Below are positions 9,413 through 46,677 of a DNA stretch of 49,498 bases, one piece after another. Each line of letters opens with the position of its first letter. The stretch's first letter is position 1. A program made the translations under genes and the position numbers. The stretch comes from Desulfarculaceae bacterium (GTDB lineage Bacteria > Desulfobacterota > Desulfarculia > Desulfarculales > Desulfarculaceae), in contig JAIPDO010000029.1 of the NCBI GenBank assembly GCA_021737645.1, positions 1-49,498 of the forward strand. Direction: 5' to 3'. The notes under the pieces are model-generated. The model had not been told where the DNA came from, made no database searches, and was given only the letters and a program-made list of their open reading frames with translations.

Positions 9413-10480
9413 TCAGTAAGTGGCCAGCTGTTGGCGCACCAGGGTGATGTCCTCGGCCTCCGGCAGGAAGGGGTAGTTGCGCAGGTCCGGACCCGGCCGT
9501 TCGTTGCCGTAGGGCCGGTTGCAGGCCACCTTTCCCGAGGCCCCTGGGCAGCCCGAGGTCATGAAAGGACGTCCCGAGGCGATGGCCTGTTCGATCATCT
9601 CCGGGTCGTCGCCGAAGAACACGATGCGCCCCTGGCCGTCAAAGGCCATGTCCGAGGCCTTGGCCTGGTCGTGGTCGATAAGCCAGCGGGCCAACTGGAT
9701 GCGGCGGTAGCCTGAGGCCGGGGGCTGGGGGGTGTCGGCCATGGCCGAAAAGCGCTCGGGGTAAAAGCAGAACAGATGGGTGTAGCCGCCCATGCGCCGA
9801 GCCCGGTCCATGGCCCATACCAATTCTTCCTCGGTCTCGCCTAGTCCGTATATGAGGTGCACCCCCGCCATGTCCCGGCCAAAGACCTCGATGGACTGCT
9901 TATAAATTTCCCAGTAGTGATCCCAGCGGTGGGGGCCGCCGGCGGGTTTGCCTCTGAACTTGGCAAACAGCTCCGGCGTGGCCGCGTCTATGGCCACCCC
10001 GATACGATCGGCCCCGGCCTCTTTCATCTCCACCAGGTTGTCGCGCTTGAGAATGGTGGGGGCAATAAGAAGGCTAACCGGCAGATGGCTGCCCGCGCGC
10101 ACCCGGCGGCAAATCTCCAGGGTGTCTTCACGGGCCTTGGGGTGGGTGACCATGGATATGCACACCCGCTCCACGTGGGGCGGAGCTGCGGCGCAGGCCT
10201 CGACCACCTGGTCCAACTCGTAGGCCCGCCAGATCACCCGGATGAATTTTTGAAACCTGGGGTCCTCGGCCGGGATTTGGCTCTCACGGGCCAAGCCGCA
10301 AAAGGCGCAGTTGGCCTTGCACCCGCCAGGGTAGGTGAGTAGCAGGTTGATGCACCCCAGGCGGGCGTTGCGATAAAAACGGCCCTCGGCAAAGCCCAGG
10401 GTCATGGCCGCGGCCAGGGAAAGGCGCACGTATTCCGGGCTGGAGTGGCTCAAGTCTGCCTCGGCGGCGGCTAAGGGCAT
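9413..10480 (-). CDS. lipS2: Radical SAM lipoyl synthase-like protein (LipS2 candidate)
   Basis: The ATG at 10480 is preferred to one at 10510 because GAGGAG lies 5-10 nt upstream of it; this gives 355 residues. The radical SAM cluster motif is C54-X3-C58-X2-C61 (GGCKANCAFCG). The C-terminus has further conserved cysteines in SGCPG and ACNRPYGNERPG, fitting an auxiliary Fe-S cluster. The overall pattern is biotin-synthase-like. Two such proteins next to a lipoate ligase and an FAD oxidoreductase match the LipS1/LipS2 system, in which two enzymes insert the two sulfurs of lipoate into a protein-bound octanoyl chain. Which of the pair is 1 or 2 is tentative. The gene lies 14 nt downstream of its partner. 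Confidence 0.72.
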   Translation of the reverse strand: MPLAAAEADLSHSSPEYVRLSLAAAMTLGFAEGRFYRNARLGCINLLLTYPGGCKANCAFCGLARESQIPAEDPRFQKFIRVIWRAYELDQVVEACAAAPPHVERVCISMVTHPKAREDTLEICRRVRAGSHLPVSLLIAPTILKRDNLVEMKEAGADRIGVAIDAATPELFAKFRGKPAGGPHRWDHYWEIYKQSIEVFGRDMAGVHLIYGLGETEEELVWAMDRARRMGGYTHLFCFYPERFSAMADTPQPPASGYRRIQLARWLIDHDQAKASDMAFDGQGRIVFFGDDPEMIEQAIASGRPFMTSGCPGASGKVACNRPYGNERPGPDLRNYPFLPEAEDITLVRQQLATY

Positions 10481-10494
10481 GGTTTCTCCTCGCT

Positions 10495-11421
10495 TCAGGC
10501 CAGGGAACAACAGGTGTCTTGAAAGGTAACTTGTACACCCAAGGACCGGGCCTGCTCAAGGGCTCCGTCGCTGGGGATGGCCAAGGCGTTGATTCCCGCC
10601 CGCACCGCCAGGGCGTCCAGCTCGGCCCGGTAGCGCCCCCGGGGGCGGGCGCAGCCCAGGTGGTGGCGGGCGGTTGGCATGCGCATACGGGCCTCGGCCA
10701 TGAAGCGGGCCACCTCCTCCACTGTGGGAGGTTCGGCCTGGGCCAGGGGGGTGTCCTTGAGCGGCATGAGCACCACGAACACCATCCGCTGGGGGCTAAG
10801 CTGGGCGACCGTCTCCAGGGCGTCGTACTCGCCGATAAGGTGGCCGTGGTCCAGGCCCATGATGATGTGGGGCACCACCTCCAGCCCGGCGTCTACACAG
10901 GCGGCCAGGGTCTCGCCCTGGGCGGCCAGGCCGTCGGGCAAATGCAGCACCCGCTGGGCGGTGCCCTCGCTGCCCACCACGTCGATCAGGGCTTGGCGCA
11001 CTCCGGCGGCCTTGAGGGCCAGGGCCGTGGCCGCGTTTATGCGTCCCACATGGGCGGTGAGCACCAGATCGGTTTCAGCGGCCAGGCGCTCAATGGCGGG
11101 CAAGGCGCTTTCCCAGGGCAGGCGGCCCTGGGCGTCGCTGCCCCCGGAGATGAGCATGCCCACTTGCCCCTGGGTGGCCAGGCGCTTGCCCAGGGCGTAG
11201 AGGGCTTCAGCTCCCACGGCCGGGTGCATGGTTCGCAGCAGTTGCCCCCGGCAATGGTCGCAGCCCTGGCGGCATTCGGTGCCGGTGATGCTTACTGCCG
11301 GGTAGCGTCCCTTGCGGCCATAGGCGGTGAACATGCCCGGCAGGAAAATGCCCAGGTTGGGGCCGTGGTGTTGCCAGGACAGCTCGCGGGCCTGGTCCAG
11401 GGCCTGGTTCAGATCAGGCAC
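10495..11421 (-). CDS. lipS1: Radical SAM lipoyl synthase-like protein (LipS1 candidate)
   Basis: The frame is open upstream to 11667, but that part only shadows the preceding oxidoreductase gene. The GTG at 11421, with GGGGAAG upstream and an 8-nt overlap with the oxidoreductase stop, gives 308 residues that begin just before recognisable homology. The radical SAM motif is C50-X3-C54-X2-C57 (GTECRQGCDHC). A paired CC near the end (C304, C305 in DTCCS) and GCARPRG resemble the auxiliary-cluster features of the LipS family. With the adjacent radical SAM gene it would perform one of the two sulfur insertions of lipoate assembly. The function is inferred from motif and context. Confidence 0.72.
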   Translation of the reverse strand: MPDLNQALDQARELSWQHHGPNLGIFLPGMFTAYGRKGRYPAVSITGTECRQGCDHCRGQLLRTMHPAVGAEALYALGKRLATQGQVGMLISGGSDAQGRLPWESALPAIERLAAETDLVLTAHVGRINAATALALKAAGVRQALIDVVGSEGTAQRVLHLPDGLAAQGETLAACVDAGLEVVPHIIMGLDHGHLIGEYDALETVAQLSPQRMVFVVLMPLKDTPLAQAEPPTVEEVARFMAEARMRMPTARHHLGCARPRGRYRAELDALAVRAGINALAIPSDGALEQARSLGVQVTFQDTCCSLA

Positions 11422-12460
11422 GGCGCCGTCTTCCCCAGGCGGGCCAGGTGCGGGCCATGAGCCCGGCAAAGTCAGCGCCGTCCCAGCCTTGCTCCATTTC
11501 CTGGCGGGCGGCCAGGCCACGGGCCAGGTGGCTGCCGTAGCGGGCCAAAATTTCTTGCTGATATTCGTCGCCCGCTTCGGACCGGCCCCCGGCCAAGCCC
11601 ACGGCTGCGCGGCCCGCTTCAGTGCCGGAGAACACCGCCTGGGGTATGCCTGCCCCGGTGACCGCATGGGTGAGCCCGGCCGCGTCTCCGGCCAGAAGCA
11701 CTCGGCTCTTGGCCATCTCGTCGCGCGGTCCGCCCACGGGAATGGCCCCCCCGGCCAAAGCCAGCACGCCGGGCAGGATGAGGCCTTGCTCCATCAAGCG
11801 GGCGCGCAGCTCGTCCAAGAGGCGCTGGGGCTTGGCCTGAACCCGGCAGCCAAGGCCCAGGTTGGCGGCATCGCCGCGCGGGAAGAGCCAGGCGTAGCCG
11901 TGGCGTATGGTCTGTTCCAGATAGACTTGGGTGCGCTCCAGGGGTTTGGCCAGAGGCACCTGCATCTGCACCCCGGCCATGAGGGCCTGGGAGGACCACC
12001 CGGCCAGGCGGGTGGTGAGCGAGGCCGCGCCGTCGGCGGCCACCACCGCGCCGGGGGTGATGCTGATCTTGCGGGCTCCCCGCTGAATTTCCCAGGCGTC
12101 GCCGCTTTGGCTCATTAGCTTGGCCCCGGCCCACACCCGCGCCCCGGCCCGGGCGGCGGCCAGCACCAGGCCGTGGTCAAACACCTGACGGTCCAATATC
12201 CAGCCCGGCCCTGGAGTGAAAGTTTCCTGGCCTTCCAGAACAGTGAGCATGCCTTCCACCGGCTGCACCTGGCTGCGGGCCGGGAAGTCTACCTCCCTGG
12301 CCAGCAAACGGGGCACGAACTCGGCGCAGTGGGGCAGGGCTCCGAAGCGGCGTTTCTTGTCAATAAGCAGCACCTGGGCCCCGGCCTGGGCCGCCTCCTT
12401 GGCTGCCAAAGCCCCGGCGGGGCCGCCGCCGATGACCAGTACGTCCACCATCTCAGGCAT
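11414..12460 (-). CDS. FAD-dependent oxidoreductase, geranylgeranyl-reductase-like (LipT candidate)
   Basis: 348 residues with an N-terminal FAD dinucleotide-binding motif (VLVIGGGPAGALAA, 8-20), a central substrate domain with WLFPRGDAANLGLGC, and a C-terminal FAD motif VLLAGDAAG. This is the layout of geranylgeranyl-reductase-family flavoproteins. It overlaps the ligase gene upstream and the radical SAM gene downstream by 8 nt each, so translation is coupled. In described LipS-type lipoate clusters an FAD oxidoreductase (LipT) is the proposed electron donor for the radical SAM pair. This gene occupies that position, but a role in isoprenoid reduction cannot be excluded from sequence alone. 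Confidence 0.7.
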   Translation of the reverse strand: MPEMVDVLVIGGGPAGALAAKEAAQAGAQVLLIDKKRRFGALPHCAEFVPRLLAREVDFPARSQVQPVEGMLTVLEGQETFTPGPGWILDRQVFDHGLVLAAARAGARVWAGAKLMSQSGDAWEIQRGARKISITPGAVVAADGAASLTTRLAGWSSQALMAGVQMQVPLAKPLERTQVYLEQTIRHGYAWLFPRGDAANLGLGCRVQAKPQRLLDELRARLMEQGLILPGVLALAGGAIPVGGPRDEMAKSRVLLAGDAAGLTHAVTGAGIPQAVFSGTEAGRAAVGLAGGRSEAGDEYQQEILARYGSHLARGLAARQEMEQGWDGADFAGLMARTWPAWGRRRRA

Positions 12461-14012
12461 GGCCCATCCTCCGGGCCACCTTTTCGATGAGCGCGGTGTT
12501 CATCTCGGTCTGGTTGTCAAAGTGCCCGGCATAGGCGGCCATGCCCTTGCCCAGGTCGTAGCAGGTGGTGGAGTCCAGATTGACCAACACCCCCTGAGCC
12601 CCGGAATCTTCCATCTCCCGCTGGTGCTTGGCATAGAATGCCTCGCAGCAGGAACCCAGGAACCAACCGCCCTGCTTTTGGATCAAGGCCAGGTTCTCCA
12701 TGAGGTGTTCAAAGGATTGGATGCTCACCGGCTTGAGGCTCAATTCCTCGCCCAGGGTGATCATCTGAGTAAATTGGCACTCGCCGCAAACCCCGCAGTC
12801 GGGCACGTAGCGGTAGTCGCAGTCCGGCGGTTTGGAGCAATAGGGGAGCAGCAGCCAGGCCGGTTTTTGGGCCAGGGCCTGGTCTGGGGTGAGGTTCACC
12901 AAAAACAGCTCGGCCGCGTCTTCCTGGCCCAGCTCCCGGGCCAGCGCTAAGCGCGCCCCGGCCTCGGCCACGGCGCGGGCCGCCTCTTGGGGAGTGATGC
13001 CCACCAACTCGCCGGTGGCGCCCGTCAGGAACTCCTCCACCACCCGGCGAAGCTCCTCGGGCTTGGCCTTGACACCCATAAGGGCCGCTTCCAGGTCAGG
13101 CACCAGGCGCTGGGGCCGGGCAAAGAAATCGCCGCTGATCAGGGCCTTTTGCACCCGCGTCCCCCGCTTTTCCAGCCAAAGGTGCACCCGCATGCTGCCG
13201 CCCTCGCCCTGCACGTAATGGCGCAGCCAGGCCGGACGGTCCGAGGGGAGGGATTTTAGCTTGAGCCATTTTTCGGAGCGGAAATAGGGCAGGCGCTGGG
13301 CCAGTTCCTCACGTTCACCGTCGGTCAGCCCTCCTGGCTCCAGGGTGAGGCCCAGGCCTTGGGCCAGGCCCCGAGCCAGGGCGTCTTTAAGCTCGGCCAT
13401 GGGCAAAGGCCGTCCCAACAGGTCTTCCAAAAAGGCCATGCGCTCCATGAGCGAGTCGATCTCCCGGCGCTTGAGCTTTTCCACCGGCACCCTGAGCGCC
13501 CTCAGGAAGCGCTCGATTTCATTGCTCACCAGCACGGTGCCCTGGAACATGGCCCCGCCTTCCAAGACCATGCCCCCGGTGCCGGATATCTTGCGGCCGT
13601 CCACCTCGATGTCGTTGCGGGGCCTAAAGCAAGCCTCCACCCCCAGGGAAGACAGGCCCTGGGCGGCGGCCAGGCAGATGCGCTCCAGGGCGGCGTTGAA
13701 GCCACCGGCAAAGGGGCCCTCGCCCCAGGGGGCGATGATCTCCCAGCCCAGGCTGGATTCCTGGAACAGTAGGGCTCCGCCGCCGGTCACCCGGCGGTTC
13801 ACCTCTATGCCATTGGCGGCGCAATAGTCCAGGCGCAACTCCCGCTCCGCTTCCTGATGATATCCCACCAGGGCGGCGTCCGGGCTGAAGCGTAAAAATC
13901 GCAGGGTGGGAGGGGAAAGGCCCGCCCCGGCCCGGCGGGTGAGCACCTCGTCCAGGGCCATGTTCTCGGCGGCGGTCAACAAACCGGTGTCTAGCAAGCG
14001 GAAGATCGTCAA
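12453..14012 (-). CDS. Lipoate-protein ligase fused to LplB-like and DUF116 domains
   Basis: 519 residues, far longer than a stand-alone ligase. Residues about 1-255 are an LplA-type catalytic domain with RRVTGGGA (73-80) and the substrate lysine K141 in GRKISG. About 270-350 resembles the LplB/accessory domain (MRVHLWLEKRG, ISGDFF). From about 385 to the end is a DUF116-like domain with C392, C398, C406, C409, C412, C455, C456 and C484, suggesting a metal or Fe-S site. The start is a TTG at 14012, supported because the LDTG..TAAENMALDE opening is at the usual distance. The ligase would activate and attach octanoate or lipoate to carrier proteins. The DUF116 role is unknown. It is the first gene of the tight four-gene lipoate set. 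Confidence 0.82.
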   Translation of the reverse strand: MTIFRLLDTGLLTAAENMALDEVLTRRAGAGLSPPTLRFLRFSPDAALVGYHQEAERELRLDYCAANGIEVNRRVTGGGALLFQESSLGWEIIAPWGEGPFAGGFNAALERICLAAAQGLSSLGVEACFRPRNDIEVDGRKISGTGGMVLEGGAMFQGTVLVSNEIERFLRALRVPVEKLKRREIDSLMERMAFLEDLLGRPLPMAELKDALARGLAQGLGLTLEPGGLTDGEREELAQRLPYFRSEKWLKLKSLPSDRPAWLRHYVQGEGGSMRVHLWLEKRGTRVQKALISGDFFARPQRLVPDLEAALMGVKAKPEELRRVVEEFLTGATGELVGITPQEAARAVAEAGARLALARELGQEDAAELFLVNLTPDQALAQKPAWLLLPYCSKPPDCDYRYVPDCGVCGECQFTQMITLGEELSLKPVSIQSFEHLMENLALIQKQGGWFLGSCCEAFYAKHQREMEDSGAQGVLVNLDSTTCYDLGKGMAAYAGHFDNQTEMNTALIEKVARRMGHA

Positions 14013-44632: not shown

Positions 44633-45574
44633 CTAGACCTCCGGACGCGGGGACAGGCCTGCCTGGTTGATGATCTCGGGCAACAGTTCCTCGGCCTCGA
44701 TGGCCTGAAGGTGCACGCCCTTGACCCCCGGCAGCTCTCTAACCTGCTCGATCAGCTCCAAGGTCACCTTGACGCCCTCGGCTTGGGGGTCGGAGGCCTG
44801 CTTCATGCGATCGATGAGTTCCTGGGGAACCACCACGCCGGGCACGTTCTTGTTCATGTAGTTGAGCATGCCCGCCGAGCGGGGCACGATTAGCCCCGGC
44901 AGGATGGCGGTTTTCTCGGTCAGGCCCATGTCCACGGCCTTGGCCATCTGCTCGGCAAAGGCCTTGATGTCATACACCGCCTGGGTCTGGATGAAGTCCG
45001 CGCCCGCGGCCACTTTCTTGGCCAGGCGCAACACGCGGAACTCGATGGGCGGTCCCAGGGGGGTCCAGGCCGCGCCGATGAAGAACTCCGGCTTGCTGGT
45101 CAGGGTGTCGCCCCCGGCCTGCACGCCTTCATCGCGCATGTTCTTGATGATGTTTATCAGCTGGATGGAGTCAACGTCGTAGACGCCCTTGGCTCCGGGG
45201 TGGCCCTTGAGCTTGCCGCTGGCGCCGGCGCCCTGGTGGTCGCCGCTGATGGCCAGGATGTTTTTGAGCCCCAGGGCGGCCGCGCCCAAAAGGTCACTCT
45301 GCATGGCGATGCGGTTGCGGTCCCGGCAGGTCATCTGGGCCACTGGCTCCAAACCGGCGTCCAAGAGGATCTTGGAACCGGCGATGGATGACATGCGCAC
45401 CACCGCGGTCTGGTTGTCCGTTACATTGTAGGCATCGGCCACACCCTTGAGAATGTCGGCTTTTTTAAGCACCTCATCCACGTCGGGGCCACGGGGCGGG
45501 CCCACCTCGGTGGTGAGGGCGAACTGGCCGGCGGCCAAAACCTTCTCTAGTTTGGTTCCCGCGTGCAAACTCAT
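44633..45574 (-). CDS. metF: 5,10-methylene-tetrahydrofolate reductase
   Basis: 313 residues, standard MetF. The VGPPRGPDVDEV and NVTDNQTAVVRMSS openings, and the AQMTCRDRNRIAMQSDLLGAAALGL and AISGDH segments, match the FAD-binding TIM barrel. It reduces methylene-H4F to methyl-H4F, a step of the Wood-Ljungdahl methyl branch and of methionine synthesis. Its ATGA overlap with metV indicates coupling. Together with MetV and MvhD the electron supply is probably not direct NADH. Confidence 0.94.
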   Translation of the reverse strand: MSLHAGTKLEKVLAAGQFALTTEVGPPRGPDVDEVLKKADILKGVADAYNVTDNQTAVVRMSSIAGSKILLDAGLEPVAQMTCRDRNRIAMQSDLLGAAALGLKNILAISGDHQGAGASGKLKGHPGAKGVYDVDSIQLINIIKNMRDEGVQAGGDTLTSKPEFFIGAAWTPLGPPIEFRVLRLAKKVAAGADFIQTQAVYDIKAFAEQMAKAVDMGLTEKTAILPGLIVPRSAGMLNYMNKNVPGVVVPQELIDRMKQASDPQAEGVKVTLELIEQVRELPGVKGVHLQAIEAEELLPEIINQAGLSPRPEV

Positions 45575-46242
45575 GACCGCAGATCCTCCCGCAGCATCCT
45601 CTTGGGCCCTCCGGCCGGCGAGTTGGACCAGTCCTTGGGAGGCCGGACCTTGGTCAGGTCCTCCAACCGGCCGCGGGCGGTGGCCCGCTCCACGATCAGC
45701 CGCCAGATACAGGGCGTGTCTTGGTTGATCTCACACATCCCATCGGTGCGGGTGCCGCCGCAAGGGCCGTTTTGCAGGCTCTTGGCGCAGCGGGCCACCG
45801 GGCACAGGCCGAAGGTCAGCCCCAGCACGCAGTCGCCGCAGGCGGCGCAACGGCTGGTCCACAGGCCCGGCTCCTCGCGGATGCTCAGACTGGTGGTGTT
45901 GACTCCGGGGTAGAGCGGGGTGTCGGCGTAGTGCTCGGCCACCAGCTGCATGCCGATTCCACAGGCCACGCTGACGATGGCGTCGGCATCGGCCGCCGCC
46001 TCGGAGATGGCTTCCAGGAACTCGGGTTCGCACTGGCGCTCCAGGGTGGCGCTTTTAACTTCAATGGGGTTGCCGTCGTTTTGCATGGCCATGGCCAGCA
46101 GGGGCGCCAGGGTCTCCACCTCGCGCTCTCCGCCGGCGGCGCATTCGGCCACGCAGGTGGCGCAGCCGATTACCAGCACCTTCTTATGGCCGCGCAGGTA
46201 ACCCACCATTTCCTCAATGGGCTTCCACTCAGCGGTGATCAT
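45571..46242 (-). CDS. metV: MetV: zinc/Fe-S partner of methylene-tetrahydrofolate reductase
   Basis: 223 residues of the MetF C-terminal-domain-like (MetV) family. The N-terminal cysteines are C27, C30, C34 (GCATCVAEC). Near the C-terminus CAACGDCVLG and LCPVARCAKSLQNGPCGG carry further metal-binding cysteines. In acetogens and methanogen-like systems MetV forms a complex with MetF and links it to Fe-S electron donors. It lies between mvhD (7-bp gap) and metF (4-nt overlap). Confidence 0.92.
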   Translation of the reverse strand: MITAEWKPIEEMVGYLRGHKKVLVIGCATCVAECAAGGEREVETLAPLLAMAMQNDGNPIEVKSATLERQCEPEFLEAISEAAADADAIVSVACGIGMQLVAEHYADTPLYPGVNTTSLSIREEPGLWTSRCAACGDCVLGLTFGLCPVARCAKSLQNGPCGGTRTDGMCEINQDTPCIWRLIVERATARGRLEDLTKVRPPKDWSNSPAGGPKRMLREDLRS

Positions 46243-46248
46243 CGGCGC

Positions 46249-46677
46249 TCAAACTCCTTTCATGGGGTTGGGGCCCAGGGCCCGCACGGCCTCGGCCCTC
46301 TGGCCGGCCATCTCCATTAAATCATCAAGGCTAAGGCCCGCGCCCCGGTCCAGTCCCAGGCGCTCGGCACCCATACCCACCTGCTCAAGAAGCCCCCGGC
46401 CGCGCGCGATGCGTTTTTCGGCCCGGTTGCTGCCCACCAGATGCTGGCAGGCCTTTTCGGGGCAAGCCGCTATCTGCAACCCGTCGCAGCCCTGCTCCAG
46501 CAGGCGCATGAGATGGGGAAGCTGCACCTTGCTGCTACAGGGCAAAAGCACCAAGCGGACGCTGAAGCCGTCTCCGGCCCGGTTGCCCTGGACCGCCTTG
46601 ACCTCGGCGGCCAGGCTCTGACGACAGTAGAGCAGGGTGATCTGCGGCTGGAAATCTGCGGTCGAATTATTGGCCAT
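46249..46677 (-). CDS. MvhD-like hydrogenase/heterodisulfide reductase iron-sulfur subunit
   Basis: 142 residues of the FlpD/MvhD family. It retains a cysteine near the N-terminus (C18), C47 in PCSSKVQ, and ACPEKACQHL (C72, C77) before GSNRAEKR. The classic CxxC at the first position is reduced to one cysteine. MvhD carries a 2Fe-2S cluster and passes electrons between hydrogenase or NAD(P)H modules and Hdr. It opens the operon and precedes metV by 7 bp. No HdrA, B or C gene is nearby, so the partner is unknown. Confidence 0.85.
   Translation of the reverse strand: MANNSTADFQPQITLLYCRQSLAAEVKAVQGNRAGDGFSVRLVLLPCSSKVQLPHLMRLLEQGCDGLQIAACPEKACQHLVGSNRAEKRIARGRGLLEQVGMGAERLGLDRGAGLSLDDLMEMAGQRAEAVRALGPNPMKGV

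Follow-up and report, generated by a model that had tools for sequence, protein, structure and literature searches.

The 49,498-nucleotide (nt) stretch of DNA examined here, called the window below, spans positions 1 to 49,498 of contig JAIPDO010000029.1 from a Desulfarculaceae bacterium. Between positions 9,413 and 14,012 it carries four genes which, judged from the proteins they encode, are a LipS1/LipS2-type lipoate assembly operon. We consider it probable that this operon is a second, dedicated lipoylation line of its host, serving GcvH-like carrier proteins with the motif ESGKW at the lipoyl lysine (KW-type carriers) and using a DUF116-type domain, fused to the ligase, as an iron-sulfur module. 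Loci compared are labeled L, sampled genomes G, and contigs C (of the host where no genome label is given). All four genes lie on the minus strand in the order ligase, flavin adenine dinucleotide (FAD) protein, LipS1-like, and LipS2-like:

12453..14012, minus strand: lipoate-protein ligase with DUF116-type domain, 519 amino acids, TTG start (Pfam LplA-B_cat, 148.1 bits)
11414..12460, minus strand: FAD-dependent oxidoreductase in the LipT position, 348 amino acids (TIGR02032, 180.6 bits)
10495..11421, minus strand: LipS1-type radical S-adenosylmethionine (SAM) protein, 308 amino acids, GTG start (NF053742, 210.8 bits; tree)
9413..10480, minus strand: LipS2-type radical SAM protein, 355 amino acids, ATG start (NF053743, 223 bits; tree)

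The ligase and FAD genes overlap by 8 nt, as do the FAD and LipS1-like genes, and a 14-nt gap separates the LipS1-like from the LipS2-like gene. The coordinates agree with a preliminary description of this DNA, which had reported the same strand, overlaps, and gap and had recognized the LipS1/LipS2/LipT/sLpl(AB) pathway in a Desulfobacterota-like host. Both assignments are supported; among relatives named to the family level, the nearest are Desulfarculaceae. Longer in-frame starts are present for the LipS1-like gene, and its relatives in L121 and L125 have open reading frames (ORFs) of 308 and 312 amino acids. The four-gene grouping was seen repeatedly across Desulfobacterota and other phyla and is therefore not due to chance.

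Radical SAM proteins of the LipS1 and LipS2 types

The LipS1 and LipS2 families are clearly the best NCBIfam matches of the two radical SAM proteins, the runners-up being BioB at 46.6 bits for the LipS1-like protein and a match at 51.3 bits for the LipS2-like protein. The profile comparison proposed in the preliminary description thus bears out the family assignment, but both scores lie under the curated cut-offs. The preliminary description had also allowed for a placement of both proteins outside the LipS clades; they fall inside. This tree had 60 rows (26 LipS1, 28 LipS2, 3 BioB, 2 LipA, and 1 MSMEG_0568), hand-picked from 27 loci and the window, with BioB taken from three of eight loci and the LipS1 half of L216 dropped by the score threshold. 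The LipS1 rows formed a single clade (support 99/98), as did the LipS2 rows (97/82), each with L148 included and both apart from the BioB, LipA, and MSMEG_0568 rows. A BioB, LipA, or MSMEG_0568 identity is ruled out by the NCBIfam scores and the tree. No sequence relative of LipS1 or LipS2 was found in the PDB at E ≤ 0.01, and plasmids held no clear LipS2, the matches listed (20 of 65 records) being weak, at 23 to 28% identity, and mostly MSMEG_0568.

A LipS1 match at E ≤ 1e-20 occurred in 44 of the 297 Desulfobacterota genomes of our phylum sample, which divides into 44 LipS1-positive and 253 LipS1-negative genomes; matches above the curated cut-off occurred in 4 of the 297. Among six pairs tested, only L148:6960-8685 (in G217) exceeded both NCBIfam cut-offs, barely, with 230.6 bits for LipS1 and 270.6 bits for LipS2. 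No ligase was found near this pair, and its contig looks archaeal and may be misbinned. L216:4438-6426, from a Planctomycetota metagenome-assembled genome (MAG), encodes LipS2 and LipS1 as one 662-amino-acid ORF followed by a KW-type GcvH gene and a ligase-DUF116 gene.

The preliminary description had noted a CX3CX2C motif and additional cysteines in both radical SAM proteins, and the alignments confirmed their conservation:

11251..11274, minus strand: CX3CX2C motif of LipS1 (46 of 48 aligned rows)
10507..10512, minus strand: C-terminal CC of LipS1, counterpart of Thermococcus kodakarensis C276/C277 (47 of 48 rows)
10298..10321, minus strand: CX3CX2C motif of LipS2 (38 of 38 rows)
9521..9550, minus strand: expanded C-x8-C auxiliary loop of LipS2 (x8 in 76 of 81 distinct copies)

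The auxiliary residues C239, C286, C287, and H167 of the LipS1-like protein (fragment numbering) are each present in 47 of the 48 rows, an alignment that contains one wrong-frame row (L122) and one cut row (L128). By its spacing, H167 would be the counterpart of T. kodakarensis H159. The auxiliary cysteines of the LipS2-like protein (C108, C312, and C321, likewise in fragment numbering) occur in all 38 rows. According to the text available for the T. kodakarensis study (Neti et al. 2022, PMC9585515), the ligands there are the CX3CX2C motif with C230, C276, and C277 in LipS1, beside the conserved H159, and the same motif with C85, C276, and C279 in LipS2. We count the window LipS2 as a variant because its last two auxiliary cysteines are spaced x8 and not as CX2C. 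Among 81 distinct LipS2 copies (>300 bits with a purpose-built profile), the spacing was 8 in 76 and 9 to 14 in 4, and one ORF was incomplete; the LipS2 of L148, under 300 bits, has CX2C. The C-x8-C loop does not strictly require DUF116, as L131, L170, and L126 combine it with ligases that lack DUF116.

The ligase and its DUF116-type domain

The ligase matches the catalytic Pfam family given above and Lip_prot_lig_C, the latter at 22.8 bits, just under the cut-off of 24. A catalytic and an accessory domain and linkage to LipS1/LipS2, by which sLpl(AB) is recognized, are thus present, the accessory domain at this score. Compared with the PDB, the ligase model gave 116 matches at E ≤ 0.001, to LplA structures, with a TMt of 0.85 for Thermoplasma acidophilum LplA (2art). 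An additional third region of the protein, residues ~346 to 519, had been overlooked in the preliminary description:

13776..13796, minus strand: RRxTGGG motif (R73, R74, T76, G77, G78, and G79 identical in all 66 aligned ligases)
13590..13592, minus strand: K141, in the NDIxxxGRKISG stretch (invariant in 66 of 66)
12555..12875, minus strand: DUF116 Pfam match, residues 380 to 486 (24.8 bits), within the whole extra region ~12456-12977

We take K141 to be catalytic, following the LplA literature. The DUF116 (PF01976) score of the window ligase is marginal, just below the gathering cut-off of 25, which fused relatives exceed. Eight cysteines of the region (392, 398, 406, 409, 412, 455, 456, and 484) are invariant in all 66 aligned ligases. 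Three alignments were made, one from 26 of 40 fused ORFs and two from 65 and 63 of the 71 full-length fused ORFs that 80 loci yielded. An AlphaFold2 model of the domain (pLDDT 89.1, pTM 0.86) has an alpha/beta fold with five short strands, and several of the cysteines sit at or shortly past strand ends. In sequence, the domain had no PDB relative at E ≤ 0.01, the lone match being a designed protein at E 0.86. The model of the full fusion reached a pTM of only 0.54 and therefore does not fix the domain arrangement. Most likely, the DUF116-type domain is an iron-sulfur module serving LipS1 and LipS2, as its invariant cysteines suggest.

Searching named genomes for the DUF116 subtype gave 229 matches, and in the best 80 of these the subtype was fused to a ligase domain in all 80; the ligase was cut by the contig start in L186, L236, and L243 and split over two ORFs in L227. 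Among the 35 of these loci with long flanks, LipT was present in 35, LipS1 in 34, and LipS2 in 32; the three genes occurred together in 32. LipT directly followed the ligase gene in 60 of 73 related loci. The FAD protein itself belongs to the geranylgeranyl reductase family TIGR02032, its score exceeding the cut-off of 158.8 bits, and no LipT profile was among the Pfam and NCBIfam matches listed (for NCBIfam, 25 of 82 families). By record title, the fusion hosts include bacteria (Desulfarculaceae, Desulfomonile, Chloroflexi, WOR-3, Cloacimonadota, Planctomycetota, and Clostridia) and archaea (Thorarchaeota, Bathyarchaeota, Thermoplasmata, and Terraquivivens), and most of the records are MAGs. 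In the phylum sample, the fusion was linked to LipS1 in 34 of the 44 LipS1-positive genomes. These fusion proteins probably belong to the third ligase subgroup described by Tanabe et al. (2023, PMC10332631), whose main text does not use the term DUF116. No lipoate paper was among the titles listed when the open-access literature was searched for DUF116.

Several other DUF116 arrangements were observed. In Dethiosulfatarculus sandiegensis (L183:5812-8468), two ligases stand in tandem, one without DUF116 directly before a ligase-DUF116 fusion. Read by eye, standalone membrane DUF116 genes follow fmt-like genes in the Desulfobacterota loci L093, L097, L101, and L107; an rsmB-like gene comes after them in L097 and L101 and one gene further on in L107. 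Frames of 630 and 597 amino acids (G134:C96:140457-140843 and G260:C156:116128-116535) contain DUF116 with scores unlike those of the ligase fusions and are possibly other DUF116 fusions.

Carrier proteins and canonical lipoylation genes of the host

According to the preliminary description, the window lacks lipA, lipB, and carrier genes. Searches of the whole host genome (4.05 Mb, 94.4% complete) for GcvH, ligase/LipB, LipA, and E2 matched only the operon ligase on the window contig, so the absence holds at the sensitivity of these searches. Elsewhere in the genome there are two LipA above the cut-off (C64 and C39), LipB above the cut-off and one E2 (both on C64), four further ligase-domain matches, one of them a contig-end fragment, and eight GcvH-like loci, one GcvH coming after gcvT on C14. 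LipB, E2, and one of the two LipA share a 16-kb stretch of C64. The genome scan suggested in the preliminary description thus turned up two LipA, LipB, E2, a gcvT-gcvH pair, and further ligases besides the operon, which therefore does not replace LipA on its own. Its role as the sole lipoate route is ruled out by the two LipA, LipB, and E2.

The lipoyl lysine lies in an E-S-G-K-W-x-G motif in five of the eight host GcvH-like proteins (those on C4, C32, C96, C108, and C111) and in ESVKTA in the GcvH on C14. All five proteins with the motif adjoin genes for FAD oxidases, CCG iron-sulfur proteins, or HdrA/FlpD/HdrB-like proteins, and on C96 HdrA-like, FlpD, HdrB-like (CCG), and GcvH-like genes stand together. 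The preliminary description had the operon assemble lipoate on GcvH or 2-oxoacid dehydrogenase; we read the five ESGKWxG paralogues as the likelier acceptors, and on co-occurrence and gene neighborhood they are most likely the carriers of the operon. Among 37 GcvH-like ORFs from the host and the operon loci, KW was present in 28 and absent from two other aligned host proteins, the ORFs of L197, L206, and L237, and four Terraquivivens ORFs. No KW-type carrier has a cysteine within its first 45 residues as cut out (0 of 28, L215 lacking its start), and 21 of the 28 have one elsewhere. A second GcvH-like ORF in Terraquivivens (L226:15389-15790, L227:15912-16382, L228:15415-15834, and L231:15429-15830) apparently has M in place of the lipoyl lysine (EHGMRV) and may be a lipoate-free homologue. 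The host also encodes a 308-amino-acid protein with N-terminal cysteines and a GcvH domain (L022:7560-8486).

In the phylum sample, a degenerate ESGKW DNA pattern was found in 36 of the 44 LipS1-positive genomes and in 31 of the 253 LipS1-negative genomes (Fisher p 2.5e-20), and a reversed control pattern in 3 of 44 and 17 of 253, respectively. Within the LipS1-positive genomes, 32 of the 34 in which the fusion is linked to LipS1 had the ESGKW pattern, versus 4 of the 10 without the linked fusion (Fisher p 0.0007, not corrected for relatedness). Carrier neighborhoods were examined at one locus each in 20 of the 36 LipS1-positive and 20 of the 31 LipS1-negative pattern genomes, with partner genes called by phmmer at 60 bits, so that "HdrA" may include other FAD proteins. 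All 20 LipS1-positive loci were GcvH-like with a CCG, Hdr-like, or FAD-oxidase homologue nearby; 4 of the 20 LipS1-negative loci were GcvH-like, likewise with partner genes.

At some loci the operon and the carriers stand side by side, a KW-type GcvH adjoining the operon in L198, L207, L216, L219, L238, and L244. The Clostridia locus L219 has FAD oxidase, CCG protein, KW-type GcvH, ligase-DUF116, LipT, LipS2, and LipS1 genes; in L207, two FAD oxidase/iron-sulfur gene pairs flank the KW-type GcvH, with the operon next. L136 has KW-type GcvH, an acyl-ligase-like ORF, a CCG protein, and ligase-DUF116, and L135 (in G133) a cytochrome-like ORF, KW-type GcvH, a CCG protein, and ligase-DUF116. In the Bathyarchaeota locus L238, NiFe hydrogenase, KW-type GcvH, LipS2, LipS1, and ligase-DUF116 genes occur together; the NiFe-hydrogenase and maturation-protease-like genes of this MAG (L238:2337-4745) come directly before KW-type GcvH and LipS2.

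The remaining window features were read from ORFs. Upstream of the operon, ORFs resemble RNase G/E and a large radical SAM protein, and downstream, trigger factor, ClpP, ClpX, and Lon. A transposase-like and a tyrosine-recombinase-like ORF lie near the start of the contig (1-1478), and consecutive metF-like, metV-like, and MvhD/FlpD-like ORFs occupy 44633-46677. Repeats at 34 to 40 kb were set aside, as they looked like chance in GC-rich coding DNA.

Proposed function, alternatives, and known systems

In the function we propose, the ligase part of the fusion would put octanoate, or lipoate, on the carrier proteins, as sLpl(AB) attaches either, and the FAD protein LipT would be the likely electron donor, as it is described to be in the main text of PMC10332631. 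In T. kodakarensis, LipS2 acts at C8 and LipS1 afterwards at C6 (PMC9585515, from the text available); on this model, the operon LipS2 would insert sulfur at C8 and LipS1 then at C6. The DUF116 iron-sulfur module may reload the sacrificial auxiliary clusters or relay electrons from LipT. The ESGKWxG carriers would work with FAD-oxidase, CCG (HdrB/D-like), and HdrA/FlpD proteins, the CCG sites reducing the lipoyl disulfide of the carriers, while LipB and LipA would mainly supply true GcvH and E2. The anatomy, homologies, co-occurrence, and conserved residues of the operon are as observed above; from them we infer the enzyme activities, the identity of the acceptor, what DUF116 does, and how the carriers are used in redox reactions.

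Several observations weigh against the proposed function. The profile scores lie below the curated equivalog cut-offs (230 for LipS1 and 270 for LipS2), the tree held no characterized LipS1 or LipS2 sequences and came with a long-branch warning, L148 being among the long branches, and the C-x8-C spacing of the LipS2 loop differs from the CX2C of the characterized enzyme. The DUF116 model had no PDB fold match at E ≤ 0.001. The window holds no carrier gene, so that the link between operon and carriers is one of co-occurrence, and in L197, L206, and L237, GcvH-like ORFs 5 to 8 kb from the operon, on the other strand, lack KW. There was no linked fusion in 10 of the 44 LipS1-positive genomes, some of these on short contigs. 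G150 (80% complete) has a fused DUF116 frame and no LipS1 match, and G159 and G169 have the fusion and no exact pattern match. In G060, the ligase lacks DUF116, although LipT, LipS1, LipS2, and a carrier are present, and DUF116 is therefore not strictly needed. A search for LipA and LipB in 132 operon-region loci (sets of 52 and 80, some from the same genome) found them in three. In L126, from G060, a single ORF (L126:2166-3851) comprising LipB and LipA, both above the NCBIfam cut-offs, lies directly upstream of KW-type GcvH and the LipS operon with the DUF116-less ligase; in L135, LipA lies two genes upstream of KW-type GcvH, beyond the cytochrome-like ORF; and in L211, the match, a third LipA, is on the other strand. 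Given L126 and L135, LipA/LipB genes and KW-type carriers are not cleanly separated in every host, and canonical enzymes may therefore share these carriers in some hosts. Canonical lipoylation genes are occasionally linked with lipS1/S2, according to the available text of PMC10332631.

These loci bear on whether the operon is instead a general LipS1/LipS2 synthase for all lipoyl carriers, or one that shares the ESGKW carriers with LipB and LipA. Besides LipA or LipB-LipA near KW-type GcvH in L135 and L126, such a role fits the activity of LipS1/LipS2 on octanoyl-lysyl peptides in vitro (PMC9585515, from the text available), and carrier specificity cannot be read from sequence alone. However, the ESGKW carriers track LipS1, the host's LipB and one LipA lie near E2 on C64, and LbpA carriers have ligases of their own (PMC6067878); we regard a general synthase as unlikely. 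A stronger competitor, if still a somewhat unlikely one, concerns DUF116, which could be a docking or specificity domain that recognizes ESGKW carriers or tethers LipS1/LipS2 rather than an iron-sulfur module. The enrichment of the ESGKW pattern in genomes with the linked fusion, uncorrected for relatedness, would suit such a domain, but eight invariant cysteines exceed the needs of docking, and G060 pairs an ESGKW carrier with a DUF116-less ligase.

The gene group on C96, where HdrA-like, FlpD, HdrB-like, and GcvH-like proteins meet, would suit an sHdr-type sulfur-oxidation module, with LbpA proteins as the carriers that keep sulfur bound for Hdr-like oxidation. LbpA has two cysteines absent from GcvH, one near the N terminus, with some archaeal exceptions, and LbpA carriers have ligases of their own (Cao et al. 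2018, PMC6067878, from the text available). KW-type carriers were rejected as sHdr LbpA because none of the 28 has the N-terminal cysteine of this published two-cysteine criterion, and at several loci the partners of the carrier are FAD oxidases and not a full Hdr set, which makes the sulfur-oxidation module improbable. Least of all do we expect the radical SAM proteins to make a non-lipoate product, e.g., to modify the lysine arm of the carrier with sulfur in some other form. The scores below the cut-offs, the C-x8-C loop, and the unusual ESGKW acceptor motif would allow for one, but the ligand cysteines are kept, the clades hold a copy above the cut-offs, and the operon contains a lipoate ligase. 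A second lipoylation line dedicated to ESGKW carriers, with DUF116 as its iron-sulfur module, is the reading we favor.

LipS1 and LipS2 depend on a supply of reductant, and their auxiliary iron-sulfur clusters appear to be sacrificed as the source of sulfur, as in LipA. No agent is known to us that recharges or reduces LipS1 and LipS2. With its conserved eight cysteines and its fusion to the ligase of the same pathway, the DUF116-type domain is a specific candidate for this part, and a single purified protein would be enough to test it. The carriers marked by the ESGKW motif suggest that lipoate carries electrons for CCG-type dehydrogenases; we did not find such a role among the papers listed in our open-access searches. 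Taken together, and with more doubt than confidence, many anaerobic bacteria and archaea might possess a lipoamide redox shuttle outside central carbon metabolism, with a dedicated DUF116-ligase lipoylation machine. In such a shuttle, the lipoyl dithiols of ESGKW GcvH-like proteins would move electrons between CCG-domain FAD dehydrogenases and HdrABC/FlpD-type complexes, and the new eight-cysteine DUF116 iron-sulfur module in the ligase would give LipS2 and LipS1 electrons or fresh clusters.

The operon is of a known pathway kind, with a ligase architecture that is conserved in bacteria and archaea and of which we found no description in the open-access literature searched; its LipS2 loop is modified, and the carrier class is probably new. 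The canonical LipB/LipA of the same host would reach the same lipoyl product. Canonical LipA is a single enzyme whose auxiliary cluster has another motif (PMC9585515, from the text available), whereas the operon uses LipS1 and LipS2, and the host's LipB and one LipA lie near E2 on C64, unlike the operon. The standalone membrane DUF116 proteins (PF01976) read here are ~255 to 280 amino acids long with a hydrophobic N-terminal region, whereas the window domain is fused to a ligase. The cysteines of the C-x5-C and CxxCxxC stretches are common to both forms; the CC pair and the TTCY motif are found in the fused form, unlike the standalone one.

Both in T. kodakarensis, as far as the text of PMC9585515 describes its enzymes, and here, LipS1 and LipS2 have CX3CX2C motifs. 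The operon LipS1 has counterparts of C230, C276, C277, and, by spacing, H159, and LipS2 has counterparts of C85, C276, and C279, with the last pair 8 apart instead of two. The operon genes are clustered, whereas the T. kodakarensis lipS pair lies >130 genes apart. In the sLpl(AB)-LipS1/LipS2-LipT pathway of sulfur oxidizers, as the available parts of PMC10332631 and PMC6067878 describe it, the same four functions are clustered, and as in our host there are GcvH-like carriers and canonical lipoylation in the same genome. The sLpl(AB) of Hyphomicrobium denitrificans, ~361 amino acids as inferred from a deletion design (PMC10332631), would lack the extra eight-cysteine DUF116-type domain of the operon ligase. 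The C-x8-C loop of the operon LipS2 may be another difference. Unlike in the sulfur-oxidizer system, the KW-type carriers are without the N-terminal cysteine of LbpA and stand beside FAD-oxidase and CCG genes.

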